DNA of 64,000 nt from assembly GCA_950022655.1 (NCBI GenBank), contig OX465579.1, positions 80,177,193-80,241,192 on the forward strand, given 5' to 3'. Positions 1,323 to 32,440 of this stretch are shown piece after piece. This DNA is from Alentia gelatinosa. Lineage: Eukaryota; Annelida; Polychaeta; Phyllodocida; Polynoidae. The position numbers and the translations under genes were made by a program. Below the pieces are notes generated by a model. It saw nothing but the letters and a program-made list of their open reading frames with translations, had not been told where the DNA came from and ran no database searches. Every line of letters starts with the position of its first letter. The first letter of the stretch is position 1.

Positions 1323-2453
1323 TCATAAAGGAAGATATAACTCTGGGTTATCCATACCTTAGACAATTGGTTTCAAATAGAATATCTATAATGATCTACA
1401 TTGTCCAGTTTTGTGGATTCTTAGGTCATCACACATTCTACTTCAAGTTAAAAATATCCTTGATGTTTACCAATTTCTTATGAGCTTGAATATATTTATA
1501 CATTCAGTCGCTCATGTATTCTAATTACTCATTGTAATGCCTGTTTTAGTCAGTGTTCTGAAAATAAATCTTTTTGCATCCACGTCCATGCCTCAGTAGG
1601 GCATTGGGCTGAACAGAGGTAAATCATTTTGGTTGGTTCAAGTTGAGGCTGTAACCAGGCAAGGTAATCGCCAGTGGCAGGACCTTGTTTGGGGCGATAA
1701 TTGAGTAGCGAGGATCGGAATCTCACCTGTCTCACAAAAGACCCAAAAGCAGTGAGTGGACGCTATTTTCTGCATGAGAAAAACTAGAGTTTCGCACCAC
1801 AGTCTTGGCTGGCGCGATGTTGTTGACCAAAGGAGCAGAACACTGGGCTTGGATGTATGAGTGGAGCTTTATTTCTATATCTTCCAAGTTGATTGCCTGT
1901 GGTAAGCAAATCCAGTCTTTACATTCCTGTTGTGACCAATTATATTAGTTTCTATATGAAGAGATTAGTAATCTAGTTGTCCATATTCATTATTATATAC
2001 CTATGCACTAAATCAGTGTAAATACGAACTGCTTCTAGGGGTACAGTTATTGTACACAGAATGCACTGTATGCCGTGAATCGTTGTACTGGTTACTTTGG
2101 ATAACAACAGATTGCACGCTTTGAGTGACAAAATGCACGCTTTGAGCCTTACCTGCATGCTTTGAGCTACAGATTGCATGCTTTGACGAAATAACGCAAT
2201 CTGATTGGCCGAGAGGCCGACAACAGAATTCAAGGTGCAAGATTTTAAAATGGTGGATCCCTTCACTTTGTGAGTTCTGAGGCTTCGTACAGAAACCACG
2301 GAGCGAGTTAGTGTGAAAATATATCAAACATCAAGGTAGGAGACGAGTACGATTCACCTGATACACTTTAGATACATTTAAGACCAAATTAAGGTATATA
2401 ATAATATGAAACCATACTTGACGGTGCCAATATGGGATACATTTATGAGTTTT

Positions 2454-2675
2454 ATCCTACCCCTGATAAAAAAACTCCATAGGCTTAACATTGGGACACT
2501 GTATTCGGTCTGGAGTTCAGAAAAATGAAAAATATCGCACTAGAGGGATACACTTGACAAATGACGTCATTTGTTAATGTAGAAGTAATTTAGACGGGCA
2601 GAGTAGGATAAATTCTAAACCAAACTCGAGCTAGTCATGTTATTGTTCATCGCACTCCGGCAAGATCGCATATTA
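2454..2675 (+). repeat. dispersed repeat, inverted partner at 49330-49503
   Basis: The ~53-base stretch at 2454-2506 (core CATAGGCTTAACATTGGGAC) occurs reverse-complemented at 49451-49503. A second block (CGCACTCCGG at 2650-2659) also has its reverse complement at 49335-49350 in the right relative order, so both are copies of one diverged element. Positions 2650-2730 are themselves palindromic around GCATATTACTGC / GCAGTAATATGC. The family is not recognised. Confidence 0.55.
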
Positions 2676-2798
2676 CTGCTCTCGGCTTTGCCTCGTGCAG
2701 TAATATGCGATTTTGCCATTGTGCGATAAACAACAACAAGACTAACTCTTGTTTGGTTTCTCCATAGTATCAGAGAAATTCGTTCAGAATGAGCTGTT

Positions 2799-2878
2799 TA
2801 TGAGTTGTATCGGAGAAATTCGTTCAGAACAAGCTGTTTACAGCGAGTTCTGAATGAATTTCTCCGATACAACTCATA
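2799..2878. repeat. perfect-looking hairpin, 32-base arms
   Basis: The left arm (2799-2830, starting TATGAGTTGTATCGGAG) is the near-exact reverse complement of 2847-2878, with a 16-base loop. Part of the left arm (AGAGAAATTCGTTCAGAA) is also present as a direct copy just upstream (about 2773-2790), which suggests a MITE-type palindrome with a local duplication. Confidence 0.6.
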
Positions 2879-2974
2879 AATGTATCCCGTATTGTCACCA
2901 TAACCATGGTTTCACAAAGACTGCATTCTGTAGTTGCCCCTATCTGTTTTGATGTTGACTTTATGGCAGCCATG

Positions 2975-3170
2975 TAGTGAATGGCATGTTTACCCTCATT
3001 ATCACTCACTCTACTTCCCAGTCTGGCCACATGGGGGCAAAGCACTCTGACATGACACTGACACCTAAGTTGTTAATGACATGAGTGGCCCTCCTGGCAT
3101 GTGCATCAGACCAGAACAAAAATGGTCAGTCCTGATTGGCTGTTGCCTTATTAGCCAAATCCAGCACAGA
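2975..3170 (+). repeat. diverged fragment of the Gypsy LTR seen at 32618-33169
   Basis: The sequence around TTCCCAGTCTGGCCACATGG, then GAGTGGCCCTCCTGGCATGTG and a TTGGCTGTTG block, matches the same ordered blocks of the LTR at 32.8-32.96 kb. It is much diverged, so this is an old LTR piece. Confidence 0.45.
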
Positions 3171-6676: not shown

Positions 6677-8527
6677 TTTTTTTTATTTTTTTTATTTGCT
6701 TTATTTAGACTGTAAAGGTGGTCGGCCTAAAGGCCGGTGTGATTCACTCTTACAGTATTGTTGTCTGGGTTTGAATCATCAAAAATATAGTCAAAGTTAC
6801 ATTTCATCGTTACATTTCCTCAAATCTCAATATATAAATACATGTAACTTCAAGCCTTTTCGTCAATAACTTTAAGTTATTGAACTCATATGTATATCCC
6901 AGCATAATATGTCAACTTAACAAGAATTTGGCATAAGTCACCTAACCTAATTAATATACAACTTATCGCATTTCTGCGTGACTAGTACATTTCTTCCAAA
7001 ACCAATGTGTATATCAACCTTTGTCACAATCCTGTGAAAAATCTTGCTTATATAGCGGAGGACAACATGGTATTTACCCGGACAAGAGGTCTTCAATCGC
7101 TTTCTTTTTCAAATCCCTTTTAAACTTATCGAAGAGTTCAATGTTTCTGAGTCTGGGAGATAGAGCATTTCATAGGATGGATCCCTTGTACAGTATACTT
7201 TGCTTGTATAACTCAACTCTTGGGCGTTCCGTTTTAAATACAAGCGCGTCGGAACTCCTCGTATCACGTCTACGTTTCATAACCAAGTTCACATCATTTT
7301 TCCGCTTGAACATGTAATTTATAATATGTGTATCCCTCCTCGCTTGCAAGAATGGTATTTTTGCTCTTTTGTGTACTGTCAAGTTATTCACCCCATCCGG
7401 CAGTTTACACACAATTTTTAATGCCTTGGTATGACAAGCTTGTAATTTTTTTAATTTTGCTGTTAAACCTTTGCCATAAAATAAATCCCCATAATCGAAA
7501 TGTGGCATGATCAATGATTTCACTATGCAGAGCGATGTATGCTCATCTATAAACCTTCTGATTTTTCTTAGTAGAAATATTTTGTGCGAAACAATTTGAA
7601 GTGTCTGATCGAGGTGTTTATTGAAAGAGAGGCTCAGGTCAAGGGTATAGCCTAGGTATTTAAAGTGAAACACCCTATCCAAGCTAATATCGTCTATTTT
7701 AACATCATTTGGATTTAGTCTCTTTAAACGAGGTTTTGTGCCAAAAAACATAAATTTCGACTTTTTGATATTTATTGTTAGTTTATTTTCTCTGCACCAA
7801 TTTTTGACCTTGTCCAGCCTCTCGTTCATATCTGCCACCATAATTTCTTCTTTTTTGCCCTGAGTAAACAAAACTGTGTCATCAGCATATAGGTACATAT
7901 TATCCCTTCCCACTGCCGGATACAAATCATTGATATATACTAAGAAGAAAAGGGTCCAAGTATCGAGCCTTGGGGCACTCCACAGGCAACACTCCCCACA
8001 TCTGAACTTATCCCATTTACCAACGTGAACTGCATTCTTGAATTTAGATAGTCTTTGACCCAAGTTAAAAGATTTCCCTTAATACCCATTTTTTCTAACT
8101 TATGTAATAATATATCATGATTTACTGTGTCAAAAGCCTTTGATTGATCTATAAAAACAGCCATTGTTAATTTATCCTGATTTATCCCTAATAAAATACC
8201 TTCAATCAACCTAACTTTGGTGTCACCTGTGGAGTGTCCCGGACGAAAACCACCCTGCACATCAGTCAACAAGTGATTCACATCAGTAAAATCCATAAGT
8301 CTGAGGTGAACGATCTTCTCTATGATTTTGCTCATAACTGGCAAAATTGACACTAGTCGGAGATTTGAAACCCTTTTCAAACCCTTTTGTTTGATTAGTG
8401 GAACCACTCGTGCTTTTTTCCACGCCTCAGGAAATATTCCCTTATGAAAAGACATTTTCAGGAGACGAGTGACTCTCGCTTTCACAGTAAGTAGAGCTGT
8501 CTCCAAAAAAGCATAACATTTGGGCAT
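6677..8527 (-). pseudogene. CR1/Jockey-type reverse transcriptase fragment with A-rich 3' tail
   Basis: Two overlapping minus-strand frames (8527-7940 and 8063-7170) together give RT fingers (VVPLIKQKG), motif A (FIDQSKAFDTVNH), motif B (CGVPQGSILGP), motif C (YADDTVLF) and the thumb (FHFKYLGYTLD). One frameshift lies near 8000. No endonuclease or early RT region precedes it; at about 8500 it is fused to the truncated end of the L1/Tx1-like ORF2. Downstream on the minus strand is a ~0.5-kb 3' UTR ending in an A-rich tail, read as T-runs at 6678-6700 on the plus strand. It may be the true 3' end of the NADAR-bearing element at 13.5-15.9 kb or a separate LINE. Confidence 0.75.
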
Positions 8528-11500
8528 TCCACGAAAAAGTGAGTCATTGTGTCAATTTCATCACAGTATGAACACTTCGGAGATTCCTTGATTTTACACC
8601 TATACAAAAATCCGTTCGTTGGGATGACGTTATGTAGAATTCTGAAGAAAAAGGACTGCAGTTTAGTTTCCCTCGTAGCCCGACAGGCGTTCCTACAGAT
8701 ATTTTCCCATTCCAACACATTTCGTGGCTTCATCTGTTCCTTCCAAAACTCCATACCTGGTGACGTCAGTTTCTCCCTCTCAAGCAATAATTTATAGATT
8801 TTCTTATTACAGCAGGTCAAAACATTGAATGAGCCCCCCCCAATATCTTGAAGTAAGAGACACATAGGATCAGTCCTGAAGTCCTCATAAGTCATGTCCA
8901 CTAACCATGGAATACCTTCCCTTAGTTTTCTCCAGATACTCTCCCCACATTTAACCCCATATAATTCTTCAATTTCTCTGCTTGTCATGAACCTTTTATC
9001 CTTAATTAGATCGCATACCTGAACAATACCCGCAGACCTCCAGCTGCGAATTAGCAGTATTTCCACCTCCCATTCCAGCCTGATGAACTTGTTGTTCAAG
9101 AGGGGGTCATTCTGTCTCTCTCTTTCCCCTGATGGGGGACATTATATAAGCTTTTCCACTGTTTCACAATCTGCTTATAGAACCAGGGCAAGCCGGGGGA
9201 ACCTCCAAAATCCACCTTTTCCAAGAAAAACTCCCAAGTAGAACCCTTGATTTCTAGAAATTCCCTAAAACAGAGAGTCCATGGGAAAAGGTCCTCCCTA
9301 CACAATCTTGCCACCCATTTCAAACGTGAAACTGTATACATCATTCTTAGATATATTAACTTTAAGCCCCCCCATTCAATAGTTTGGCGTAGCACTTTGT
9401 AGGAGACCTTGCTGGTTTTACTCTGCCAAATAAAAGCATTGGTAAATCTCCGGAACTCTACGAAAACTCTCTCTGGTGTGTTAAGCACGGACGAGCAATA
9501 TAACACCTGCGGGATTAATAAACTATTAACTACTGTTATTTTCCCTTTGAGGGATAAGCTTCTGTGTAACCACAGTTCAGAGATAACCTTACATTTGTCT
9601 AATTTTCCTTTAAAGTTCATCTGATACTCTTCCTCTGCCGTCATCCCGTTCTTGAAATGAATCCCTAATATTTCTAACTGATGCACTTGGGCTAGGGGGA
9701 GGGACCGAGGGGGACATTCCCGATGTTTGCCTATTGGCAGGACCTTGGATTTCTCCTTGTTGATCCTCAGTCCCGCCATATTCCCAAATAGCCTAATGAT
9801 ATCCAGTATCCCTTGGATAGACTCTATCTCCCGGACCACACAACACAAATCGTCAGCAAATAAAGATAGCTTGATTTCTTTCCTAGACAGCTGTATTCCT
9901 TTTACCACCTTGTTCTCCCTTAGGGCTATTGCTAAAATTTCAATTGTAAGAAGGAACAAATATGGAGACAAGCAGCACCCCTGGCGAGTGCCTCTCTCCG
10001 GTTTAAACCATTTTGTATGGAAGCCGTTGTTGGAAACACAGACCTCAGGATCGGTGTAAATTATTCTAACCCAGTCGCAAAATTCAGGGCCAAACCTGAA
10101 AAGGTTTAGAGAGTGGCCTATAGCATCCCAACGAACCGAATCAAATGCTTTCTCAAAATCAAAACTGAGAATAAACCCTGCTAGACCCCTCTTGTTCAGA
10201 TAAGAGATGCAATCTCTGAGCATTCTGATGTTTGAACCGATGTACCTGCCTTTCATAAAACCCGTCTGATCCTTATAAATGATGTCATCCAGGCAATTTT
10301 GTGTTCTTATGGCCAGCAATTTTGTGAGGATTTTGTAGTCTGTGTTGAGCATTGTGATTGGCCTCCAATTTTTTATCTCTTCTCTATTGACCTTTTTCTT
10401 TGGTATGAGCGTAATAACCCCCCTTTTCTGTTCTGTACTCAGTGAGCCTTTTTCCTTTGCAAAGTTTAAAGAGTGGAAAACCAGCCCTCCAATCTCCCCC
10501 CAGAAATACCTGTAAAACTCGGCCGTAAGCCCGTCTGTTCCTGAGCATTTGTTGTAATTCAGCTTCTTGAGAGCCCCCCACAGTTCTTCAAGCATTAACG
10601 GTCCTTCTAGTCTCTCAGCTTCTGATTCTGTAATTCTAGGGATGTCTGCTTTATCTACTAATTTCTCAATATTGTCCTGCAGGTTTTCCCCTCCCCTATC
10701 CGAGTACAGTTTCTTATAAAAAGAAAAGAGGTTCTGTTCAATAATCTCTGGATTGGAAGTAATTTCCCCATTATCCGTTCTTATTTGAGAGATTAATTTA
10801 TCGTTGTAAGATTGTTTCAACAAATTTAAAAAGTACTTCGTTGGTTTTTCCCCATTTTGAGCCCAAGTAGCTCTAGACTTAAACATCAGGCGTAGCACCT
10901 TTTTTTTGTCCTCTCTTTCGAGCTCTGATCTAGTACTACACGCCTCTTCCTGATCATCTTCATCTAAAGGCGTTTCTTTATTTTCCAGTTCTGTAAGCCG
11001 TTTGAGGTTGTCCTCCCTTTCTTTATTATCCTTTTTCCTTTTTTCTCTTCTATTATTTATAGAGAAATCCCTGATTTTGAACTTGATAAAGTCCCATTTC
11101 ACCTCTGGGCTAAGTTCTGAGACAGACACGTCCCACTGGCTAATTAAAAGTGAGAGTTGGGAAGAGTAATCCCTATCGCCCAGCAGGAAGTTATCGAATT
11201 TCCAGTATCCCGGTCCTCGAGTGTGGGAAAAATGTTCCAGATGGAGGAGAAGCAATGAGTGGTCTGTATGGAGAGCTGTCAAGATCTCTGGGGCTTTAAT
11301 CTTATTTTTGTAGTCATCTGAGACAAACCAATAATCAATTCGGGAGCGTTGTTTTGCCCTTCTAAATGTGAATTTTGGTTGTAGTGGGTGGGACTCCCTC
11401 CATACATCTGAAAGATTCATGGCTTCAAGAAACTCTTGGAGCTCTCGTCTATACCCATTAGACCTGCCGCCTTTTTTGTCTCCCATACGGTCCAGGCTAG

Positions 11501-11965
11501 GTGAGAGAGCGATGTTGAAGTCCCCCCCTAGTAGTATCGGTAGATCAGTGAATCGAGACAGAACTTTACCCACATTGGACAGTAGCTTCAGTTGTTGTAG
11601 GGGCTTGTCATTGGTTGGGGCATACACATTAGCTATTACCATTTCTTCACCCTCCATCCTTAGATGAACCACACTCATCCTTCCATCCTCATCCCCTATT
11701 TGTTCCAATATTATGATATCCGCATCTGTATGGAAGGCCATCGCCACTCCCCTAGACTGAGAAGTCCCATTAGAAAAAATCAACTTCCCTCCCCATTCCA
11801 TCTCCCATAACTTGTTGCTCTTCTCTTCACTGTGCGTTTCCTGCAAAATGCATATGTCCGTCTTAGCCCTGATTTGTGAAAACATCGCTTTCCTCTTAGT
11901 CCTATCTCCCAACCCATTAACATTTAAACTCCCGATCCTGAGGTCTCGCCTCTTTTTTTACCCAG
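8482..11965 (-). pseudogene. L1/Tx1-type ORF2: APE endonuclease, reverse transcriptase, zinc-finger end
   Basis: The main frame (11912-9096, 938 residues) starts with the endonuclease motifs QETH (residues 24-27), GGDFN, RIDYWFVSD and TDHSLL. The RT has the L1-group signatures SFDFEKAFDSVRW (motif A), GTRQGCCLSPYLF (motif B) and SLFADDL (motif C). A second frame (9099-8482) continues it after a one-base shift near 9105 and carries a CCHC-like finger (CSYC, then H and C in THFFVEC). The frame is open upstream of 11912 (GSLNVNGLG, a typical APE start) to a TAA near 11965, next to an A7 run. The product would nick target DNA and prime reverse transcription. It ends right after the finger, short of the usual length, at a junction with a different RT. 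Confidence 0.85.
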
Positions 11966-13546
11966 GTCCCCTACTTCCCATCATAAGTTCTGGTCTCACA
12001 ACCCTTAGCCGAGAGGAAGGAGGAAGCAGGGTATGCCCCCTTTTCCCCTCTTATGTCCCCCAGGCGCTGAAACTTTTCGCGTCCTCCACATCTTAAGCCC
12101 TCCCACTGCCCCCCCTGTTCTGCCTGGCGCCCTTGCCTCCCGTAACCGTTTACCGCTCCACAAACAACACTTAGTACATATAAAAATGACATGAACGACA
12201 TATAACACATAGTTTGGTTGGAAAAACCGACAAGAGTTAAGAACTGCCTTAGTGATATTAATCTTCAGCACGAAGACCCTACAGTGTCGTAGCTCAAACA
12301 TATTTACAAAGTAAGTGTAACTACCACATTCCAACCACATTACAATATAGGAGGCTACCCTACAGTGTCGTAGCTCAAACATATTTACAAAGTAAGTGTA
12401 ACTACCACATTCAAACGACATTACAATACATGAGGCTACCTTTTTGAGGGAGCACCAAGGAGGATAAACTATTTCCGAAGTATGAGATACTACCAACACC
12501 GACTTCATTACTACATTAGGACCACGACTTGGAGACTATTTAATTGAAAACAAACATATCCAAATTTTGTCATGCAGTATGATACGATTATTATAGCAAG
12601 CCAAATCCAGTCATACCGGACCAATGAAGTGATAGGCAAAACTAGCGAAACATCTAAGTATGTGCACACTGACATAATTTGTTGACCTCCTGGCATTTCT
12701 AAGTGCTCTAATAATATTCATGTCATTCTTGTAAAAACAATTCGAAGGGAATGTTATGGCATGATTCCCGTGTCCTGGAACCAGTACAAGCCTACAAACT
12801 TCAGTCTGCCCCCTGTAATGCAGTTGTTTAAACACTCTACAATCAATGAAAGAGTCGTCAACTATATATTACACAACCACAGTATCAGCCCCCTTCCTTT
12901 CAAGAGAGGCCGGCGTAATAAACCATCATTGACATGTGTCGTCATACCCTATGAAAGTGCCGGACATGATTATCGCGCCTCCACAAGGAGTTCTTTGATA
13001 CCGCAATCAACAAAGGTCAACTGTCGTCAAAGCCAATTAACAAGTCACATAGTAAAGACCCTATACCATCGTTAGAGTAGTTTCTTCCATGATTATCATA
13101 AGTAATACTAAAATACCAAGATCTTTTAAGTAGTTTCATCCAATATTGTCACAGGTAATAACAAAATACTAAAGTAGTCGGTGCCCTTCCTCCGTTAGCA
13201 CCACCACTTACACAGTCGACTCAAACAACTCCACTATAGATACAACCTTAACCCAAGTACAGCTTCCCCCCTCCCCAGTTAGGGTCTGTGAAACATGGAC
13301 GTCTTTAGCAGTTAACCTCTTTTCCCAGCCGAACACCAAATCCAGTAAGTTCCGCAAAAACCCAAGACTCCCCACATCGAGTACCAAAAACTGGTCGCAG
13401 ACCAAGACCCTCCTCCGACCTATCAATCGACCAGGCAGAGAAAAGACTCAGTATGACACGGGCCACTATCAACGACCGTTTACCGTGTCCCTGACCAACT
13501 ACTAAAACCATATCACCCTTCGTACATCTCAGACCTATAACATGTC
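11966..13546 (-). other. inter-ORF region of the composite LINE, with an 81-bp tandem duplication
   Basis: No supported protein. From about 12000 to 12165 the plus strand is C-rich, then base use changes abruptly to AT-rich sequence that runs to the end of the esterase ORF. That break may mark a junction between two elements. Positions 12277-12438 are two copies of an 81-bp unit beginning CCCTACAGTGTCGTAGCTC, with a few differences. Confidence 0.55.
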
Positions 13547-14157
13547 CAGTAAACGATAGATCTTATCTCCCCAGTCCTGTAGGAGCTCCTGACCTGGGTG
13601 AATGCCGTCAGCTTGTAGCAAACTGTAGTAGGACTTGACCTTGCCGTTCCTCCGTCAGTGGACCAACCTCTGTAACCATGGAGATGGCATTACATTGGAT
13701 TTGTTTATGGCAACTATCCCTCTGTTGATCTCCGTCACGGCTGACTCTAGGATGGCTTGCTTGGATATTACTTCATTGTGGTTGGCCGGCAAACCTGAGC
13801 AGGAAGCGAAGTCGATCCCCACAATCGGGCCCAAGATTAGCCTGGTATGGGGTAGCATTCCCTTCCAAGTACTTTCGCCTCTGTCATCTGCTTCAGTACT
13901 TCCTCTGCTATGTCGTCTGCTGAACGCCCTGAAAACTTTAGATCCATCCTTCTCTTCCATCTGACTGTTAAGTTATTAACCCCCGCAACTACCAGATATG
14001 TAAGCAACGGAAACTCCCTGGCGTATCGCATAGCTTGGCTGAACGTACGGCGAAACGTGGCTCCGGGGAAGAAGTGCACTATCACCCTATCATCCTGGAT
14101 GAACTGCTTCAAATGTCTGCCTCTAGAATCCATGACCACTACTAGCATGGGCATGGT
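13547..14157 (-). pseudogene. SGNH-hydrolase (esterase-like) ORF of the composite LINE, broken
   Basis: From the ATG at 14157 the protein shows the SGNH blocks in order: MDSRG (nucleophile Ser block), PGATFR (Gly block), VVAGVNNLT (Asn block) and, near the end, DGIHPG (Asp-x-x-His block). The frame shifts near 13850 and meets a TGA near 13655, after which the same frame carries the DGIHPG block to a stop at about 13547. Esterases of this fold are known in ORF1 regions of CR1-like LINEs. It starts 80 bp after the NADAR frame ends, nearly the same spacing as in the intact element at 18211/18284. Confidence 0.7.
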
Positions 14158-14237
14158 TGTTGACCCAAGCAAACGAGGCGGTACTGTGGTATGATTAATC
14201 CCCTACTTCTTAGTTGACTACGTTTGGAACCTCTTTC

Positions 14238-15887
14238 TTACTCCACCTGACGCTCCGTAGAAAGACCCGTTGACTGGGCTGTGACGTCACCAGAACCTGT
14301 GGGGGTTCCCTGTAACGCGTCACTCAAACCCGCACTCTTCGAAGTCCCGGGGGAATCCCCACCCATAGGCTCGACCGCAGGGACTGGGGAATCATTCCGT
14401 GAACATGTCGCACCATCTAGCTTTGTAGGTAACTCCGTAGGCGGGGACGGCCTAGCCAAGTCCCTTCTGAGATCCATAAGAAACAGCCCTAGTTTGTTGC
14501 GGCCCTCTACTCTCGTGCCTGCTCGCACCTCGGCCAGGCTCAGACCGCCTCCCCATTTTTTGTCTTTAGTGGCTTCCACAAGGATCTTCGAACCTGTGTC
14601 CAGCAGCGCCTGACCTAATTCCTTGTTTTGGCGGAACTTAGCCTGCAAGATCCTTTGTATCACTTGGTCCTCTACTTGTTCCCAGGCCTGTGAGAGCCTA
14701 ACTACCTTTGAAATTTTCTTGATTTTATAAGGGTCATGTATCGATTGTGCCTGTTGGGCTCTGTCCTTGTCCCCACAAACTTTCGCCTTAGACACCGTGT
14801 AAGCCTGTTCAGCTGAACTAAAGTTAGCACCGTCCAGCCTGATTTCACACTTGTGGAAATTAGAAAGCGGAGCATGCGGACCCTGAAAGAACACTGAGTC
14901 CCCTCTTGTGACCATGAAAGTGTTCTTGAGCGAAACCCTTTCGGGAAGCTTCTCTAGATCACTAACGCCATATGTAGATCCATCCAGCACTACCCTATCT
15001 CCAACCTAAATAATCCGGGACTGCATGCCTAAACTGTAGGCATTATCGGCTATAGCACGTAGCGTGGCTCTCTGTTGTGTGATCTCCTCCGGAACGACCT
15101 CGGTTAACCAGATATCCCTAGTGTTAGGCTGGTTCAATAAGTTTCTCTTGTTTTTGAGAATATCCAGCTTTGCAGCTTTGTGCAACAGAGACACCCGGAT
15201 AGGCCTAGGCTTCGCACCTTGTATAAACTGACCTACCCTGTTAACTGTGTCGATCTCAGTGGGATGCAATCGCACTCCCGTAGCCTGTAAGATGTCCACC
15301 GCAATGTCACATACTTTCTCAAATCTGAATTCCCTCACTCCCGAGATGTTGAGCGATTTAGCATTGATCCTTTTCCACATAGAGGCGTTTATTTCCCCGC
15401 TCAAGCTGGATCCTCCCTTCTCGGATTCTAGGCGCAAGACCCTTGCCTGGATGTCCTTAACTTTTTTGTTGTAGGCATCTCTAGCCCCCTCCAGTAAAAT
15501 ACGCAGGTCATCTCCATCGATATCGACCCTACCTGTATAGTCCTTCAGCATTTCTACATCATTGACTGTAACTTGGAGAAGATTTTCTAAATGTACACAT
15601 TTGGCCTCCAGTACTTCCACATTCCTAGACAGCTGAACGTTCTCCGTCTCTATTAGGTCAACTCTCTCACACAACGTGCTTAGGGTAGCCTGCAATTGTT
15701 CCATATCAACTGGGTGAAAAACCTCCCTGTCCTGACTACCTTTCCCACTTTTGGGAATGGGTTTCCTACCTTGATTTTTCCCGGGGGCCATGGTCGCTTC
15801 TGATAAACTTGGAAAATTCTCAGGCCTCAATTCTGGTTGCTCGGGACCCTTCTTGAACAAGGAGCTCCTTGTCGAACGACCGCTCAT
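14238..15887 (-). pseudogene. LINE ORF1: coiled coil, RRM-like region and NADAR domain, split by one in-frame TAG
   Basis: The ATG is at 15887. The first 293 residues have a basic N-terminus, a coiled coil (about residues 70-165) and an RRM-like part of L1-ORF1 type. A single TAG (15008-15006) follows, and the same frame then runs on to 14238. That second part is a well-preserved NADAR domain. Numbered from 14990 it has FFQG (34-37), PLSNF (41-45), SSAEQAY (58-64), DTG (131-133), EATKD (139-143), WGGGL (146-150) and GRNKLG (163-168), then a Pro/Ser-rich tail. NADAR proteins cleave N-glycosidic bonds to ribose phosphates or ADP-ribose. In the homologous plus-strand element the two parts form one uninterrupted protein, so the TAG is probably a lesion, though readthrough cannot be excluded. 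Confidence 0.82.
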
Positions 15888-16280: not shown

Positions 16281-16727
16281 CTTCATTGTATATTGTTATG
16301 GTTGTGGTGTTCGCCGCCTGACTAGCAGGTTTGAAGACCCCTTTCCAGAACACTAGTTCCCAGCGGAATCCCACCCTACAAACAATTACGTAGGTTGGTT
16401 TGGCTATTGGTAGGTTTGCACCAACTTTGTAATACAAAACACAACTCACGCGTTTAATAAACAGGAATGTTTATTAACAAACTACTTCCCGGAAAGATCT
16501 GGAAGATCTTTCCCATAAGTACAGTACCCCAGCACGGTGTGCCGGGTAACACTGGAGAGGCTAATCTAAAAGACTCGCCTAACCACCAGGAGGGTTACGA
16601 GAACCCACCTGCAAATATGAGGGTCCAAGGGTCCGCTCTCAGGGAAAGACGTGTGAGGACAGCCTGTCGACCTACTGTGAGTATATATACCCAGCGTTAC
16701 GTAATCCCAGTCTCCGCCGCGCCACTC
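16281..16727. repeat. LTR-like repeat copy A, left part (interrupted by the LINE)
   Basis: From about 16333 (GAAGACCCCTTTCC) to 16727 this matches 31727-32133 closely, including the palindrome GGAAAGATCTGGAAGATCTTTCC region and GAGTATATATACCCAGC. The match breaks at 16727 and resumes at 23270. Read on the minus strand the repeat starts TGTAGTGGGG, has a TATA box and looks like a solo LTR. TGGTG occurs just outside both ends (near 16305 and at 23371), but the left boundary is uncertain. Confidence 0.6.
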
Positions 16728-16876
16728 GTATACCATGGCGCCGAGCGGGTAGGTCGTGCCGTCGCGGAGCTCCGACTCACACCGTTCAAATGCTAGGAAA
16801 TTTGATCGGAAAGTCCACGATACACACATAAATGCATACCTACACTGATAGTGACTCTTCTACGTTAATGTGATTC

Positions 16877-18211
16877 ATGGATCTCAGGCCTACGGCGCAA
16901 AGAATCGCAAGAAAGAGCTCAACTTCGTACCCAAAGGGTGATATTAGGGAGCGTAGTCAAGGTCCCGGCACACCTAAACAAACAACAGTCAACATGGCAA
17001 CCAACCAGCCTGACGAAGCTACCCCTACTACGATCGAGAGAATCGCTGAATCTCTGGACTGGATAAAAAAACAACTATCGGAAATGCGATCTGACAACTC
17101 AAAGCTGGAAACCAAAGTAGATGACTTAGGTCTCAAACTAACAACGCACATAGACGAATGTACAGATCTCCACGCCCAAGTTGACAGCGTGTCAAGCCAA
17201 GCGGACGAAAACAGTGCCGACATCGCACAGATAAAAAAACACATTGACAACTCAAACAAGCAAGCAAGGCACCTAAACCTAATCTTCAAGGGTATCGAGG
17301 AGAAAGCCAACGAAAGAATGCATGAACTAATGAACAGTGTTTTTGTTGAAATGAAATTAAGTTTTCCTTTTACAATGACACATGGGGCCTTCCGGGTGGG
17401 AAGACCCAAGGAACCAGCGCAACAACAACAACAACAAGCAACTCAAAACAAACCAACGTGGCACCGGCCTATAAAGGTGAAAATGGTTTCAAAGCAACAG
17501 ATATCTGAAATATTTGGACTGAAATCAAACCTGAAAGGTACGCGCTTTGACAACGTTATGATCACGGCGGATTTAAATGATGATGAACTCATGGATCGAA
17601 AGGAGTCGCAAACAATTGCCGAAGCGGCGAGGAGGTGCGGAGTGACGAACGTAAAAGTCAAAAACAAAGGAGTTACGATCAACGATCGATACTACAAGCC
17701 AGAGGAGTATGACGACCTACCTCTCAATATAACAACTGAAAATGCGGCAACTGTTACGACAGGGAACAAAACCTTCCCTCTCGAATTTTTTCCATGCAAA
17801 ACTGACGATGTTAAGAGCGGCATAAGCGGCCGTAGCGCCGAGCACGTCTATGCCATGCGCATGGCACGTTTTCACGATGACAAGGCAGCCTACAGACAAA
17901 TCCAAGAAACGTCTAACCCGTACACAGTCAAGTCCATAACACGCAAGATCAAGAAGGATCAGGCTTGGAAGAAAGTAGAGCAGCAACAGCTGGAAGAAGT
18001 TGTAAACCTGAAACTCACGCAACATCAATGGATAGCGGATCGTATCCTAAAGTCTAAGGCTGATAACTTCTACGAAGCCACACGCGACAGCACCTATGGT
18101 TGCGGACTCACCCTCTATGACATCAAAAATCTAGGCGCTGCCCCAGTGCCCAAACCCGGGTTTGCTCATGTGATGGGCGATATCATTACGAGGTTCAAGA
18201 ACAAAGTGTGA
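16877..18211 (+). CDS. LINE ORF1 protein: coiled coil, RRM-like RNA-binding region, C-terminal NADAR domain
   Basis: 444 residues from ATG. Residues ~53-135 are a heptad-rich coiled coil (trimerisation in L1 ORF1). Residues ~140-270 follow the L1-ORF1 pattern (LNLIFKGIEEK, HGAFRVGRP, RPIKVKMV), with a poly-Gln insert near 178-184, and end in a basic C-terminal-like part. The last ~150 residues are a NADAR domain: SAEHVY (320-325), NPYTVKSI, a Trp in DQAW, EATRD (401-405), YGCGL (408-412) and a final LM-like segment before ITRF. The PLSNF and GxNxLG motifs of the family are degenerate here. Expected role: bind and chaperone the element RNA. The glycosidase-like domain may act on nucleic acid or on ADP-ribose marks in the particle, which is inference. 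The SGNH ORF begins 72 bp downstream. Confidence 0.8.
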   Translation: MDLRPTAQRIARKSSTSYPKGDIRERSQGPGTPKQTTVNMATNQPDEATPTTIERIAESLDWIKKQLSEMRSDNSKLETKVDDLGLKLTTHIDECTDLHAQVDSVSSQADENSADIAQIKKHIDNSNKQARHLNLIFKGIEEKANERMHELMNSVFVEMKLSFPFTMTHGAFRVGRPKEPAQQQQQQATQNKPTWHRPIKVKMVSKQQISEIFGLKSNLKGTRFDNVMITADLNDDELMDRKESQTIAEAARRCGVTNVKVKNKGVTINDRYYKPEEYDDLPLNITTENAATVTTGNKTFPLEFFPCKTDDVKSGISGRSAEHVYAMRMARFHDDKAAYRQIQETSNPYTVKSITRKIKKDQAWKKVEQQQLEEVVNLKLTQHQWIADRILKSKADNFYEATRDSTYGCGLTLYDIKNLGAAPVPKPGFAHVMGDIITRFKNKV

Positions 18212-18283
18212 GTACTGAGCAAGTTTACATTATTTAAACTGATTAAACCTTGAACGCCCGACCCGTGCCTATCCCATCTAGCC

Positions 18284-18934
18284 ATGTTCAGGGTGCTACT
18301 GCTAGCGGACTCGAGAGGCGGAGGATTTAAGAGCAGGCTCGATGACCAGTTACACACCCAAAACATATCAAACGTGTCCTTTGATGTACTCTGGTACCGA
18401 GGGGCCACAATACGGGAAACTGTTAACCGAGCCAGGCCAACACTTGACAGACGCGAAAAATACGACCTTCTGTACTTTGCCTCAGGTGTAAACAACTGTA
18501 CAACCAAACTGCATTTTAGAAACATAGTGCCCAATTTCGAACGAACAACTGACATTGTAGACCACCTGATGAAGGAACTAGGGACAGCAAAGTTAGACCT
18601 GGCAAGGTATGCAAGGCTGGTAATAGTATGCGAGTTTATAGGTCTCTCATACGAGATGTACAATACACACGGCGAGCCTTTCAAGGAAGAGCAAAAAGCC
18701 CTAAATGATGCTGCAGTAGAGGTCAACAAAGCTATACTAAATCTTAACCAGCTAGAAAATATAGTGACACCCCATATGCATCAACAAGTCCATAAGTCTA
18801 GGCACGGTCGTATGGGACACCGTTACTCAGGAACCACCACTGATGGCATTCATTACACCGCTGAAACGAAAGACAAATTCGCACGAAATATCGTGTACAC
18901 GCTGCAATCGAACATACATCTAATCTGTAATTGA
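18284..18934 (+). CDS. SGNH-hydrolase (GDSL-type esterase) ORF of the LINE
   Basis: 216 residues from ATG. The SGNH blocks are present and intact: ADSRG (Ser about residue 10), YRGATIRET (Gly block), FASGVNNCT (Asn block) and TDGIHYT near the end (Asp187, His190). All four signature residues are therefore kept. The family hydrolyses esters such as lipids or acetylated sugars. An esterase in this position is known from CR1-like LINEs, where it has been proposed to act on membranes or RNA-protein particles; its role is not settled. It is a separate ORF between ORF1 and ORF2 and must be translated by reinitiation, a subgenomic RNA or internal entry. Confidence 0.78.
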   Translation: MFRVLLLADSRGGGFKSRLDDQLHTQNISNVSFDVLWYRGATIRETVNRARPTLDRREKYDLLYFASGVNNCTTKLHFRNIVPNFERTTDIVDHLMKELGTAKLDLARYARLVIVCEFIGLSYEMYNTHGEPFKEEQKALNDAAVEVNKAILNLNQLENIVTPHMHQQVHKSRHGRMGHRYSGTTTDGIHYTAETKDKFARNIVYTLQSNIHLICN

Positions 18935-20040
18935 CTGTCAATCCAAGTTCTGACACTTGACATGTGATCTAAAACAATGTAATGAGTTTCTTTATACAAA
19001 TCAAATGGCAGAGTGGTTAATCATGCTGTCTAAGATTTACAAAACGGAAACACCATCAGAACCGACGTTAACCCAACTCATGACTAGAGAGTGGTCAATC
19101 ATGACTCTGTCAACAATGAGCTGTCACCGATAACAAACTGACATGTATTTGAGAGAGTGGTAGTCATGCTCTCAACCCGGTTTGTATACACTGTCTGTTT
19201 TGATTTACGACTGTGTTATAACCTTTCTTTTTTCTTTCTCTTGCAAAACTCTAGCACGTAAATGATTACGTCAATGAGTAACTCGTCGACATTAAGAAAT
19301 TCTGTTACAAGTTTATTTACTGTTTACACGTTCTATATTTATGTTATGTTCTAAGCGAAATGTTTACTATAAATCCTCGTGAACTTGGCTAGGTAACTAT
19401 GGCCACCTATAAATCTGTATAATCCATGCGTATGTATTTTAGTTTACTCTTTATAAAACTATTCTTGATGAGTTATTATAAACACTACTTATCAGCACTG
19501 TACAGTACACCATGTTATCTATTGCTAGTACCCTTACTTAACCCCTTTCTTATGATGAAAAGTCTACTTGACATACTAAGATATAGACATAATCTGTATT
19601 CATACCTATTACACAGACCATCACAAACCAGGCGTGGGCACGCACGCTACAAGCACCGAGAACCAAAATCACATCTCATGGAATCCAAACACCAGTTACC
19701 CAGCCACATGAAAATCTGCAGCCAAACAGTCCACCACTATGCCCGACCAACCACTTTACACCATGCCAAAGGCACACGCAACCAAACTGTAAGTTACAAT
19801 TACGTCCCTTTTTCCTTCTTCCATCTACTTCGATGTACCAGAAACTATTGATTGGGTGAGTACGGATCCGTGACTCACAACACGACTCACTGTTCCTACA
19901 ACCAACTGCTATGATATGCACTGGTCTGGACCGAGTGGTGGCCGCCCTGGCAACCATTCAAAACCCATGTCTAACAAGCAAGATCTCAATAAGAGTTAAA
20001 CCTACACTAAAAATCGTACCCATCTCAAAAACACCTTACC
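18935..20040 (+). other. 1.1-kb inter-ORF region with three related stem-forming repeats
   Basis: No convincing protein (the longest frame, 19426-19851, is low-complexity and hydrophobic at its start). Three related segments, AGAGTGGTTAATCATGCTGTC at ~19010, then 19086-19111 and 19151-19175, share GAGTGG-TAATCATG followed by CTCT/CTGT. The second and third can pair GAGAG with CTCTC. A region this long before ORF2 may hold a translation-control or packaging structure. Confidence 0.45.
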
Positions 20041-22876
20041 ATGACAGATAGACTACACAAAATGGGGAAAGGACTCCACATAGCTCATGCCAATGTTCAA
20101 AGTTTGAAAAATAAAGCTGATCTTACAGGAATAACCATCAAACAATCTGGCATACAAGCATTCACACTGGCTCACTGCCGATTTCAATGAGGCGATGTTT
20201 AGTATCGATGGCTATACTCTAATTAGAAATGACAGAAAATGGTTGAATCATGATGGCCAAATAAAAATTGGAGGGGGGGTTGGAGCGTATATCAAGAGCG
20301 AAATCGAATACGAGATACTAGACACTCTAAACATGAGCACACCCACTATTGAATCCCTTTGGGTGCAGCTCAAACTACCGCACCAGAAAGACCAAATCCT
20401 TGGTATTATTTACCGCCCACGCAAAGGGGACATAGCGGCATTCACAGAAACACTAATTGAACAAGCAGTCACTGTCAAAAACACCCACAACGCTGAACTC
20501 ACTCTACTAGGTGATTTCAATGTCAATTACCTTGATGCTAATTCCAACGAAACCAAAATCCTCAAAAGTCTTGAACTTGAAACTAATCTAAAACAAATAA
20601 TCGAGGTACCAACTAGATATAACAACACTTATGATTTAATCTTCACAGACACCAGATTTATACACCAACACGGAACACTTGATTACAGCTTCAGTGATCA
20701 CTGTTCTATATACCTCACTAAGAAGAAACAGAAAGATACTTACCATACAAAACAGTACCAGGGTAGATCCTATAAAAACTATAGTAAACAAAACATGCAC
20801 GACCGCCTATCGGGTGTTGATTGGACGCCCCTCTATGAAATGGGCAATCCAGAAGAGGCGTGGAAATTCATGCTTGATAATATCATAGAAATACTTGACT
20901 TAGATTGCCCAATCAGGCAACATCAGATAAGACATAGGGAAGAACCCTGGATTAACGATTATGAAATAGTAGACGCAATACTAGAGAAAAACAGAGGTTG
21001 GCGACACGCCCAGAACACAAGGCTTGAACCAGACTGGATTGAAGCCAGACAATTGCGAAATCACACCAAACATCTCATAATGCATGCAAAACGATACTAC
21101 ATACAAAATCATATGGGTGATGACTGCAAAAAGTTTTGGGGGAAAATCCAGAAATTACTACCCACCAAGCAGGCTTACACATCCATTAACCTAGTAGATG
21201 AGAGCAATGGGAAAGATGTTGACGAAGAAACCACGGCAACATTTATTAAGGATTTCTTCAGTAATATCGGTGCTAAACTGGCCAGTAAGTTCGACAACGA
21301 ATGGGTTGATGATAATACCGAAACTGATTGTCGGATGGATGACTTTCTAATCTCATTGGAAGATACTGAAAAGGTGATAAGGGAAATTGACATATCCAAA
21401 TCCAGTGCAATTGAAGGTGTATCCACTAGGGTACTGAAAGACAGCTTTGAATTACTAAAAGTGGAACTTCAATTCATCTTTAATCTAACACTAGAAAGTG
21501 GGTCCTTCCCTAACTCATGGAAACGAGCTGTTGTTATACCGATCCCGAAACCTAACTTTAAGCATGAGGTTGGGAACCTTAGGCCCATATCACTTTTACC
21601 CTTACCTGGAAAGTTACTCGAAAAGTTAATTCATAAGCACATGTCCATATACCTAGAAAACAACAACCTACTTTACCAAGACCAAGGCGGCTTCCGCAAA
21701 CAACATTCTACAGTCCTTACAACAGCCGAACTAACTGATGACCTCTTTCAACACCTTAACAACAAACAACTAGCACTCACTACTTTTATCGATCTCAACA
21801 AAGCTTTCGACACGGTATCCCATGAAATATTACTAAAAAAACTAATAAGCCTAGGCATCAATAAAAAACTCCAAACCTGGATTCAAAACTATCTCACCAA
21901 TAGAACTCAACGAACTAGAGCCAACAACCAACTATCCGATACCCATACAATTACTCATGGCGTCCCGCAGGGGTCCACTCTTGGGCCCTTGCTCTTCCTG
22001 ATTTTCGTCAATAACATAAATTGCAAACTACAATACTGCCAAGTGAAACTATACGCCGATGACGCGGTAATCTACTTAGGCTGGAACAACATACACGAAA
22101 TCTACACCAAGGTACAACATGATCTTAGTATCATGGAACAATGGTGCAACAACAATCGACTTACAATAAATGCTAACAAAACAAAATCAATGCTCTTTGG
22201 CTCGCGACATAAACTAAATATAAATAACACCTTCGATCTCAAATTGTTTTTGGCCGGCCAGCAGCTAGAGAAAGTGAACAAGTTTAATTACCTAGGTATC
22301 CTACTCGAACCAACACTCACATACGAAAAACAGATCAATAGTATGATTAGTCGAGCATCACATAAGATCTACATGCTTTCGTTCATTCGGAAATACCTAA
22401 CAAGAACACAAGCCATTGCAATCTACAAAGCGAAAATACTGCCTTATCTTGAGTATGGCGGTATTCTTATCCATAACACAAACAGCACATCACTAACTAA
22501 GCTGCAAAGGTGCCAGAACAAAGGCCTACGTGTCTGCTATAACGCTAGAGACCGTGTGCCAACAAATCTTCTCCATAAAACCTTTAATATAAACTATCTC
22601 TATGACAGAAGACAGACCCAACTACTAAAAATAGCTTTTGCTCGCGCCCAAAACCACTCTAACTTAACAAATGCTAACAGACAAACGCGACTGCATGATG
22701 GCCCGGTGCTTCACACATGCCAACACATACAAGTATCGAAATATAAAGAATCAGTTAAATACAAAGCCTCGAATCTCTGGAACACCCAGACACCAACATT
22801 CAGGAAAATTAGTGAAGCAGATTCTATGAGTAGGACCCTGCAACACAGAATGTCAAGACAACTAGACAATTATTAA
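20041..22876 (+). CDS. LINE ORF2: APE endonuclease and CR1/Jockey-type reverse transcriptase, one frameshift
   Basis: The APE start (HIAHANVQSLKNKADL) reads from the ATG at 20041. Near 20160 one base is lost or gained, and the following WLTADFNEAMFSIDGY region continues in the next frame; the remaining 893 residues from 20195 are uninterrupted. Endonuclease motifs: LLGDFNVNYLD, YDLIFTD and SFSDHCS. RT motifs: RPISLLPLPGKLLEK, TFIDLNKAFDTVSHEI (A), HGVPQGSTLGPLLFL (B), YADDAVIY (C) and KFNYLGILLEP (thumb). The catalytic Asp pair is intact. It ends with the usual LWN-containing tail and a stop at 22876. The protein would nick target DNA and copy the element RNA in place. It has no zinc knuckle or RNase H, and its motifs differ clearly from the L1/Tx1-type ORF2 of the minus-strand copy. 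Confidence 0.88.
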
Positions 22877-23265
22877 CTATCCAGAAGCTGAAGCCAGGAC
22901 AGACTAAAGATTTTTTCCTTGTTATTCCCCTTACCCAAACTAAACATGAACCTACCAATGCACTAGTCACTGTTACATATGTGCTTAAACTGTGGTATAT
23001 TCATTAGACTGATGGGGAACCTAGTTTGTAAGACTTTGGGAGGGATGGGATGTCTTGTTGCTGGCCTATCTCGGCCGATCTCTGTATACTTGCACTGTCA
23101 TATCATTACTCAAGCACAATTTGTAGCCATGAACAATGTAAGCCTATTTCTTAGGCACTAATGGCATGTTGAACGCTATTTTTCAGCTGGAGTGGCTGGA
23201 AGATAGGGCTATCTATTAGCCCTAAGCCTTACTCCAGGGTAAATAAAAACCTAAAAAAAAAAAAA

Positions 23266-23370
23266 ACTCTTGTGTGCGGCGTTGCCCGGAACCACTACAC
23301 AGTAAGGACTGACTCTCCACGCCATCTTCTGAAGAACGTCCAAACACTGCTGGACTCCCGCCCCACTACA
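23266..23370. repeat. LTR-like repeat copy A, right part
   Basis: Resumes the repeat broken at 16727: TTGTGTGCGGCGTTGCCCGG up to CCCCACTACA matches 32134-32221 with a few differences, including a short insertion in this copy. Confidence 0.65.
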
Positions 23371-30547: not shown

Positions 30548-31693
30548 GTGAAAAAGATCAACAACCCACCGCAAGCAATTCGTGCAAGGAAACAAGTACT
30601 GTCTAACAAGCAAAAGGTTGAGAACTGGCGCCCGATTAGCTTATTACCGTCCCCGTCCAAAATACTTGAGCATGTCATCTTAGACTATCTTGATAACGAA
30701 ATGGCAGGGAAAATGAACAAACGACAGTTTGGGTTCATGAAAGGCAAGGGTACCGGTGACGCCATCTTTAGGCTAATACAGGCAATTTTTTGCAACAGGG
30801 ACAACCAGGAAATGACTGCTTGTTGTTTCTATGATGCCAAAAAGGCATTTGACTGTGTCCCAAGAAAATATCCTGCTCGAGAAAATATCAAAAGTATATG
30901 GAATCTCAGATACCTTGGTTTCTTGGTTGACCAATTATCTATCTAACCGCAAGCAGAGTGTGTTGTTTAATGGTGTCGTTTCAGATATTATTGATGTTGA
31001 TGTTGAGTCCCACAAGGGTCAGTTCTGGGACCCAAGTTATTCAATATATATGTCAATGATATGACAACCAACCTCCCAACGTGCGAAGCACTGCAGTATG
31101 CGGATGACCTGGTGGTTTTCACCAGTGGAAGAATCGAAAGGGAAGTGGTTTATAATCTACAGTGTGGATCTGATAGCATTCTGGGCTGGTGCAAACGCAA
31201 TGCTATGACAATCAATACCAGCAAAACCAAGACCTGTTGGTTTGCGACTGCACCTAAGCTGAGACATCTCTCCCCGCTACAAATTAAATTTGAAAATGAA
31301 ATCCTGCCATTGGTGACCTCATATCGTTACCTTGGTATAGTTCTTGATAGTCAACTGAAGTTGCACACACATTTGCATGAAATCGCTAGAAGTGTAAGCT
31401 CCAAAATATACCGGCTGAGCAAGATTAGATCATGCCTGACGAAAGAGATAGCGAGAACTCTCTACCTGACTACCATTAGGCCATTGATGGAATATTGTGG
31501 GTATCTCTACGATGGGGGCCAGCAAAAAGATATTGATAAGCTGCAGAAACTGCAGAATAGGGCACTGAGGATAGTCGTTCAGCAGTATAAGGGTAGAACA
31601 CCTGTAGACAAGCTGCATGAGCTAAGTAAAGTTAGTAAGTTGGAGTTTAGACGGAGAAGGCAGCTGCTTACTATCATGTATAAATTGTCATGA
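30548..31693 (+). pseudogene. LINE reverse transcriptase fragment, frameshifted
   Basis: Three frames in order give WRPISLLPSPSKILEH, FYDAKKAFDCVPR (motif A), PQGSVLGP near 31010 (motif B), LQYADDLVVF (motif C) and the thumb YRYLGIVLDSQ, ending at a stop at 31693. At least two frameshifts lie near 30930 and 31010. It abuts the LTR-like repeat that follows. Confidence 0.75.
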
Positions 31694-31721: not shown

Positions 31722-32221
31722 GATGCAAGATTGGAAGACCCCTTTCTGGAACGCTAGTTCCTGGCGGGACCCCCTCTACGAACAACTACGTAGGTTGGTT
31801 TGGTTCTCGGTAGGTTTGCACGAACTTAGTAACACAAAACACAACTCACGTGTTTAATAAACAGGAATGTTTATAAACAACTTACTACCTGGAAAGATCT
31901 GGAAGATCTTTCCCACAAGTACAGTACCCCAGCACAGTGTGCCGTGTAACGCTGGAGAGGCTAATCTAAAAGACTCACCTAACCACCAGGAAGGTTACGA
32001 GAACCCACCTGCAAAGATGAGGGTCCAAGGGTCCGCTCTCAGGGACAGATGCGCAAGGACAGCCTGTCGACCTACTGCAAACGCTGAGTATATATACCCA
32101 GCATTACGTAATCCCAGCCTCCGCCGCGCCACTATTGTGTGCGGCGTTGCCCGGAACCACTACACAGTAAGGATTGACTCTCCACGCCATTTTCCGAACA
32201 CTGCTGGATTCCTGCCCCACT
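31722..32221. repeat. LTR-like repeat copy B, uninterrupted
   Basis: Matches 16333-16727 plus 23270-23370 as one continuous ~500-bp block. On the minus strand it starts TGTAGTGGGGC and has TATATATACTC at a promoter-like position, as in an LTR. It serves as the empty-site reference for the LINE at 16728-23265. Confidence 0.65.
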
Positions 32222-32259
32222 ACAGTTCAAACACCTTTACCTGGTCAGTTGTGCAGTCA

Positions 32260-32440
32260 TACTCAGTCTCTCAACATGCCTTGTCACACAATTTCATAAG
32301 CCATTCATTATACTTGTCCGTCATTCCAAGCTTGGGTAACTTTATTGGTAATATGCCATGGTGCACACTGTCAAATGCCTTCCGGTATATAAATAGCTCC
32401 CGTAACATCCCTGTTGTCGTGAGCTAGAAAAAGATTATTG
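32260..32440 (-). pseudogene. LINE reverse transcriptase scrap (motif A region)
   Basis: A minus-strand frame reads YRKAFDSVHHGILPIKLPKL followed by MTDKYNEWLMK, the motif A region of a CR1/Jockey-type RT. Only about 50 codons remain. Confidence 0.6.

Follow-up and report, generated by a model that had tools for sequence, protein, structure and literature searches.

Analysis of a 64,000-nucleotide stretch of the Alentia gelatinosa genome (contig OX465579.1, positions 80,177,193 to 80,241,192 of the forward strand; hereafter the window) revealed a LINE whose ORF1, at 16877-18211 on the plus strand, ends in a genuine NADAR domain. NADAR-bearing LINE ORF1s are a genuine feature of this genome, occur widely in it and have scarcely been described. 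The domain is related to enzymes that remove ADP-ribose from guanine bases, which suggests that the LINEs carrying it could erase or recognise such a mark on the nucleic acid of the element, RNA or DNA. The element and its insertion site comprise the following features:

16727-23265, plus strand: LINE copy carrying ORF1, about 6.5 kb, nested in another repeat (from flank matches)
16724-16726, no strand: ACT at the 5' junction, a possible 3-nt target-site duplication (flank matches overlap at 32131-32133)
16877-18211, plus strand: ORF1, 444 aa, with coiled coil, RRM and CTD (L1 ORF1p-like) and NADAR
17741-18208, plus strand: NADAR domain of ORF1 (Pfam core, residues 314-412)
18284-18934, plus strand: separate ORF for an SGNH/GDSL-type hydrolase, 216 codons, with S (ADSR), N (VNN), and D and H (DGIH) present
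20011-20190, plus strand: first part of the ORF2 endonuclease region, frameshifted relative to the remainder
20195-22876, plus strand: ORF2, remaining endonuclease region and reverse transcriptase (RVT_1 1e-38, residues 450-702)
23254-23265, plus strand: 3' poly-A tail of the LINE (from the sequence)
23266-23268, no strand: ACT at the 3' junction (from flank comparison)
31800-32224, plus strand: uninterrupted copy of the target repeat, the empty site (from flank matches)

A NADAR domain at the end of a LINE ORF1

The first-pass annotation had placed here a NADAR domain behind an otherwise normal coiled-coil/RRM ORF1. A 444-aa ORF does lie at these positions, and the SAEHVY, EATRD and YGCGL signatures named in support of the domain are all found in its C-terminal part. 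The profile search that had been proposed as a check scored above the curated cut-off (PF08719, 44.5 bits against 35.1, E=2.6e-11, residues 314-412). In the PDB, the oomycete NADAR 8bau was matched by ORF1 residues 300-418 (phmmer, 1.2e-5) and, at 2.5e-12, by a profile of 13 NADAR segments from the same lineage. Chance similarity to NADAR was considered and is ruled out by these E-values and by the relatives described below. Compared with its sisters, the NADAR of the window copy is a net 7 codons shorter (155 versus 162 residues), a shortfall that takes away the greater part of the FFQGHLSPLSN motif.

The N-terminal part likewise bore out the annotation. A coiled-coil stretch precedes the RRM/CTD, and a profile of 10 related N-terminal rows had human L1 ORF1p as its top PDB match (2ykp, E=5.4e-4), followed by 2yko (5.6e-4), both over the RRM+CTD. 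The likeness to L1 ORF1p is distant, since Pfam lists no L1 ORF1p family for this ORF1 at E<=1. With coiled coil, RRM and CTD, the protein has the makeup of type II (L1-like) ORF1s, to which it adds the NADAR domain (PMC4120745); among the ORF1 types set out in section 7 of that paper, none includes NADAR.

The LINE copy and its SGNH-hydrolase ORF

The element has the marks of a LINE: an EN-RT ORF2, a poly-A 3' end and an insertion with defined junctions. Its flanks (16400-16726, and 23266 onward) both match one unbroken repeat copy at 31800-32224, with 90% identity for the left flank and 94% and 93% for two pieces of the right flank. The copy of this target repeat family at 31867-32427 has a 186-codon open frame. 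An assembly artefact was rejected on the grounds of the many copies and the clean empty site. ORF2 is 98.8% identical to that of L042 over 892 residues, and in this sister copy (L013/L042) ORF2 is a single 957-codon frame. Because the N-terminal part of ORF2 is split over two frames in the window, the window copy is probably dead, that is, no longer mobile. The endonuclease family could be recognised in the relative L041 (PF14529, 5e-10); in L042, the closest sister, the endonuclease gave no Pfam match at E<=0.01.

Between ORF1 and ORF2 lies the SGNH-hydrolase ORF. That it forms part of ORF1 is ruled out by the stop codon and by its own ATG at 18284. In the window it matches PF13472 weakly (0.0086, under the cut-off), and the SGNH ORF of the sister L002 reaches 25.7 against a cut-off of 23.6 for Lipase_GDSL and 2.7e-7, just under the cut-off, for Lipase_GDSL_2 (PF13472). 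A relative of this ORF occurs just downstream at 38 of 39 fetched NADAR places (L002-L040, the exception being L007), a count that includes the window copy (L011) and partial matches at L015 and L034. The catalytic Ser, Asn, Asp and His are kept, as DSR, G.N[ND] and DG[ILV]H, in every aligned row long enough to show them (L015 and L025 being partial in this alignment and L034 left out). Omega for this ORF, at 0.04 in one tested pair and 0.06 in the other, indicates purifying selection. SGNH hydrolases are also found in type IV (esterase) ORF1s, and here the hydrolase instead occupies an ORF of its own between ORF1 and ORF2 (PMC4120745; PMC3905857). Esterase ORF1s are known from CR1, RTEX and Penelope elements (PMC3905857) and are described as confined to vertebrate groups within the Jockey superfamily (PMC4120745).

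A second NADAR LINE and spread in the genome

On the opposite strand, the window contains another LINE with a NADAR domain:

15006-15887, minus strand: N-terminal part of ORF1 (coiled coil, RRM/CTD); the relative L007 has this part and NADAR in a single frame
14238-14990, minus strand: NADAR part of ORF1 (PF08719 1.5e-29, 103.8 bits)
13658-14202, minus strand: SGNH-like remnants in two frames (profile 3.1e-8 and 4e-5)
9096-11912, minus strand: ORF2, L1-superfamily (Tx1-like) EN-RT (RVT_1 6.6e-36, Exo_endo_phos 1.4e-10)

From the arrangement in L007 and the ORF2 that follows it (L043), we infer that these parts belong to one element. The SGNH remnants are separated from ORF2 by a gap of 1.7 kb, in which an 81-bp unit is repeated in tandem at 12276-12437 (two copies, 95% identical). 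The NADAR part matches YbiA (2b3w, 2.9e-11) and 8bau (5.4e-10) in the PDB, and on reading it has all five active-site residues; an AlphaFold2 model of the domain, built from a 3-row alignment only, had a low pLDDT of 42.8. The minus-strand ORF2 is 65% identical to L043, which matches human L1 ORF2p at 2.5e-110 over 1157 residues and carries a C-terminal zinc motif (zf-RVT, 4.2e-7). This full-length match and the zinc motif place the minus-strand element in the L1 superfamily; we take it, and L007/L043, to be Tx1-like.

Searches of the whole genome (1.23 Gb, 101 contigs) returned at least 150 NADAR matches, all above the cut-off; these are the best-scoring of 3136 candidates, and the domain of our ORF1 is not among them. 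Open frames of at least 350 aa contain 116 of the 150, and frames of at least 500 aa contain 93; 146 have no internal stop, in a set biased towards the best-scoring copies. At least two of the 150, L001 and L051, are not LINEs. A search with our ORF1 gave 103 matches, from 95 scored of 2852 candidates, at identities of 37-97% (window copy itself aside), and 86 of the 103 (window copy counted) extend to residue 400 or beyond, i.e. into NADAR. Together with the second element in the window and the 150 or more NADAR matches, this indicates that the NADAR-ORF1 is no freak copy. Nine of ten copy pairs compared are 98.5-99.9% identical between chromosomes and the tenth 95.9-97.9%, so several lineages have moved recently.

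Within 0.5 Mb (G000:C6:16578924-17072826) there are 21 matches of near-equal score to a NADAR-ORF1 relative on one strand, each 40-41% identical to our ORF1 and with 1 TAG, which suggests segmental or tandem amplification. The window also contains a retrotransposon at 43146-47305 (plus strand), which is presumably DIRS/Ngaro-like and whose reverse transcriptase (6.8e-10) lies ahead of a tyrosine-recombinase-like ORF (PF00589, 1.4e-4, under the cut-off), and further non-L1 LINE reverse-transcriptase fragments at 7170-8527 (minus strand) and 31061-31693 (plus strand).

A homologous-protein search with our ORF1 gave 0 matches from 3219 candidates, a result that is no measure of distribution in other animals. 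The same search with the NADAR part of L002 gave one match, P0121, which from its sequence and source name we take to be a bacterial protein.

Active site and selection

Active-site residues were numbered as in the P. nicotianae NADAR (PMC11543638). In the canonical loci L002-L010 (about six distinct families), E43, K50, E125, D130 and W133 are all kept, in 9 of 9. The lineage of our ORF1, hereafter the diverged lineage, was tallied in 29 rows that include near-identical copies and the window's own copy (L011), with L014 (broken frame) and a second NADAR ORF of L025 (in neither lineage) set aside. E43, E125 and D130 are kept in all 29 rows; K50 is replaced by M or L in all 29; and W133 is replaced throughout, by Y in 26 rows and by F in 3. 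An Arg stands one residue ahead of the K50 position in 28 of the 29. Across 17 rows of this lineage, E43, E125 and the residue aligned with K75 are invariant (17/17 each). The second NADAR ORF of L025 (347-1111, plus strand), which lies just upstream of a NADAR-ORF1 copy and differs from it, has E, Q, E, D and F at the five active-site positions and forms a long branch in the 34-row tree described below.

In the E. coli C7 NADAR, K95, the equivalent of K50, binds phosphate and is required for efficient hydrolysis, and its replacement by Arg is tolerated in vitro (PMC11543638). The replacement of both K50 and W133 therefore predicts loss or strong change of guanine-ADP-ribose hydrolysis in the diverged lineage. 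Where dS was finite, which was the case for 7 of the 30 closest pairs, omega for the NADAR part of this lineage was 0.04-0.14; dS was undefined in the other closest pairs and near or past saturation in most pairs. For the canonical lineages, the one of five pairs with finite dS gave an omega of 0.03. Judged from these codon comparisons, the NADAR part of the diverged lineage is under strong purifying selection despite the loss of K50 and W133. An enzymatic role is plausible for the sister lineages; for the diverged lineage itself, such a role in the classical form is unlikely.

Proposed role

L1 ORF1p binds element RNA. We propose that ORF1p would coat the RNA of the NADAR-bearing element and so carry the domain to it, where a canonical NADAR would hydrolyse ADP-ribose from guanine bases of LINE RNA, single-stranded cDNA or target DNA. 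The marks undone would be those placed by host or foreign ADP-ribosyltransferases, which if not removed would obstruct reverse transcription, translation or synthesis of the second strand, and NADAR would thereby equip the LINE with a repair or counter-defence activity of its own. In the diverged lineage the domain would be retained to bind, in place of hydrolysing, ADP-ribosylated nucleic acid or some related ligand, or would act on another substrate. Taken as a whole, the reading in which canonical NADARs erase guanine ADP-ribose and the diverged lineage binds it is tentative: we regard it as quite possible, short of probable.

The first-pass annotation had suggested that a retrotransposon with such a domain could remove ADP-ribose marks from its RNA or cDNA. 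The general idea is strengthened by the report that, of the hydrolase families tested, NADARs alone remove ADP-ribose from guanosine in RNA (PMC11833690); for this particular ORF1 it is weakened by the absence of K50 and W133 from 29 of 29 rows. The enzyme reading fits better with the sister lineages, the minus-strand element of the window included. NADARs also reverse guanosine ADP-ribosylation in DNA (PMC11543638), and since they act on guanosine in RNA and on guanines in DNA, a canonical LINE NADAR would be expected to clean guanines of the RNA template or the cDNA. Phosphate-end marks, made with PARP14 and a Tpt1-type enzyme, were not acted on by the NADARs tested in PMC11833690.

Possible sources of such marks were sought in the genome. 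In favour of the proposed role, PARP domains gave 26 exon-level matches. Against it, the DarT partner of DarT1-NADAR toxin-antitoxin pairs was not found here (PF14487, 0 genome matches) by an intron-blind search whose control was positive in 1 of 14 genomes. The model of the Scabin-like transferase family, which we take to cover CARP-1/pierisin-type enzymes, likewise had no genome match, the controls of that search being equally silent. For CARP-1, a DNA ADP-ribosylating enzyme of shellfish, a role in innate immunity has been proposed (PMC8053099).

A different account of the same data would have the NADAR fold serve only binding or structure in all these ORF1s, with nucleic acid, ADP-ribose or a host partner as ligand and catalysis irrelevant. 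The diverged lineage, which has lost K50 and W133 and is still strongly purified by selection, speaks for this, as does the nematode SNA-3, a NADAR protein with a role in RNA processing and no known substrate according to PMC9303266. Five intact active-site residues in 9 of 9 canonical loci would be unlikely if the fold alone mattered, and E43 and E125 are invariant (17/17) even in the diverged lineage; we therefore consider a purely binding or structural role rather unlikely.

Proposed exchange of the ORF1 module between LINE superfamilies

ORF2 was read in six NADAR elements, the two of the window and L041-L044, and an EN-RT ORF2 is present in all six. Among themselves the ORF2s of our LINE, L041 and L044 (in L044 split over two frames) share only 27-34% identity, and with the Tx1-like ones 22-27%. 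Against named L1 ORF2p in the PDB, L042 matched weakly (3.2e-14) and L041 did not match at 1e-3. A reverse transcriptase search gave 5090 matches, 120 of them listed; in the comparison, whose tree drew on 20 of those 120 proteins and did not include three short reverse-transcriptase fragments of the window, the ORF2 of our LINE was placed far from the Tx1 rows. By exclusion, the non-L1 ORF2s (our LINE, L041 and L044) probably belong to the Jockey superfamily and would be CR1/L2-like.

The RRM/CTD parts of the ORF1s are homologous across four lineages (hhalign probabilities 93.7-97.7, E 2e-7 to 2e-12; the coiled coil may contribute to some of these scores). On this comparison, no fewer than four divergent LINE lineages of the genome are shown to have the NADAR-ORF1 module. 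Because NADAR-ORF1s stand ahead of very different ORF2s, L1-superfamily and non-L1, the module has apparently passed from one LINE superfamily to another.

NADAR phylogenies were compared with this picture. In a tree of 34 rows a long-branch bacterial row joins L003/L006 (support 96/93), so that the LINE rows do not make up a single clade. After 8 of the 34 rows were dropped, namely the long-branch P0121, L049, L047 and second NADAR of L025 and the near duplicates L018, L025, L027 and L028, the 20 LINE rows form one clade (99/97) apart from the 6 other NADARs, which are bacterial, phage, oomycete and stand-alone host proteins. When L051 and L053 were added, the LINE clade also took in the non-LINE L051 (100/99), which qualifies the picture of a single LINE clade. 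A sister relationship between the NADAR of the diverged lineage and the Tx1 one was dropped as a candidate: it has support of 94/88 in the reduced tree and does not resolve with L051 and L053 added.

The simplest reading of the phylogenies and ORF1 alignments, though no proof, is that NADAR may have been captured once and that ORF1 was then exchanged between LINE superfamilies. Reticulate ORF1 evolution is already known inside the Jockey superfamily (PMC4120745). Alternatively, different LINE superfamilies could have captured NADAR several times independently, as the 34-row tree would allow, with L003/L006 beside the bacterial row and no single LINE clade; that capture can recur is shown by the Crassostrea gigas Tx1 and Ectocarpus Gypsy cases (PMC12477816). 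The union of 20 LINE rows against six others in the reduced tree, the persistence of that clade, with L051, after rows were added, and the homology of the N-terminal RRM/CTD parts as well all count against independent capture, which we judge unlikely.

Two NADAR proteins outside the LINEs were noted. L051 (G000:C5:15167200-15172600; 24-3143, plus strand) is a single ORF of 1040 codons with LRAT (1.2e-6) and a C-terminal NADAR (3.9e-30), long tandem repeats and a glycine-zipper-like stretch (under the cut-off); in the 2.2 kb fetched downstream there is no further ORF of at least 150 aa on the same strand. Its NADAR, grouped with those of the LINEs, is possibly a domesticated LINE domain, or else the donor of the LINE domains. 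L001 (G000:C11:13149326; 1402-2127, plus strand) is a stand-alone NADAR, about 226 aa long, whose Pfam score of 180 bits is the highest in the genome search, and in the reduced tree it groups with phage and bacterial NADARs, apart from the LINE ones.

Exchange of the ORF1 module can be combined with the eraser and reader roles. LINEs would then bring along a guanine de-ADP-ribosylase in an ORF1 module that can pass between L1-type and non-L1 elements and that erases an antiviral or antitransposon ADP-ribose mark on retrotransposon RNA or cDNA, and one large lineage would have turned the module into a reader, a pseudo-hydrolase. This combined scenario is speculative and, as a whole, on the unlikely side.

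Other readings of the domain

It is also conceivable that NADAR acts on soluble ADP-ribose-derived signals (cyclic ADP-ribose variants etc.) and blunts host innate immune signalling, with nucleic-acid repair playing no part. NADARs are N-glycosidases, the same proposal has been made for phage NADARs, and NADARs also occur on RNA viruses of invertebrates (PMC9503650). In the LINEs the domain is not free but tied to an RNA-binding ORF1, and the Macro and NADAR domains of eukaryotic RNA viruses have been argued to target mainly macromolecular ADP-ribosylation (PMC9503650), so that a soluble target seems decidedly improbable. That NADAR is a passenger, caught by chance among the shuffled domains of modular LINE ORF1s (PMC4120745) and carried without benefit to the element, was already disfavoured and is highly improbable in view of omega values of 0.03-0.14 where measurable, NADAR-ORF1s in at least four lineages and at least 150 genome matches (at least two non-LINE), 146 of the 150 best-scoring without a stop.

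Relation to known systems and meaning

The first-pass annotation knew of no established description of this fusion, which was nearly right. In a literature search whose scope excluded subscription papers and preprints, NADAR on a LINE ORF1 was described only in one passage of PMC12477816 (2025), which reports, from a Repbase query, NADAR in the ORF1 of several Crassostrea gigas Tx1 LINE families and suggests RNA processing. Those elements resemble the minus-strand element of the window and L007/L043 in having NADAR on an L1-superfamily ORF1, whereas the LINE at 16727-23265 has a non-L1 ORF2 and a NADAR without K50 and W133. The passages on LINEs in PMC12477816 make no mention of other LINE clades, an SGNH ORF or an active-site comparison. 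The Ectocarpus Gypsy of the same paper is likewise a retrotransposon with a YbiA-type NADAR, but it is an LTR element of a brown alga with the domain at the N terminus of Pol.

With the DarT1-NADAR, YbiA and Phytophthora NADAR hydrolases, the LINE NADARs have the domain family in common; they share the last-strand glutamate of the YbiA subfamily, and the canonical lineages keep the catalytic residues, although the known hydrolases are not part of a LINE ORF1 (PMC11543638; PMC11125620). Polyproteins of invertebrate RNA viruses offer another case of a parasitic element with NADAR in a larger protein, but in a virus (PMC9503650). As far as the literature search shows, what is new here is the non-L1 NADAR LINEs, the SGNH ORF, the homology of the ORF1 module across superfamilies, the copy numbers and a selected lineage with a changed active site.

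Nucleic-acid ADP-ribosylation is known as a weapon between bacteria, phages and toxins. An eraser carried in many copies of a mobile element would suggest that animals, too, use ADP-ribose marks, and use them against transposons. Such elements would put the question of substrate in concrete form for the invertebrate NADARs that still lack an explanation, and the canonical and diverged lineages, side by side in one genome, make the eraser idea testable. The modular view of LINE ORF1 would be extended to exchange across superfamilies.
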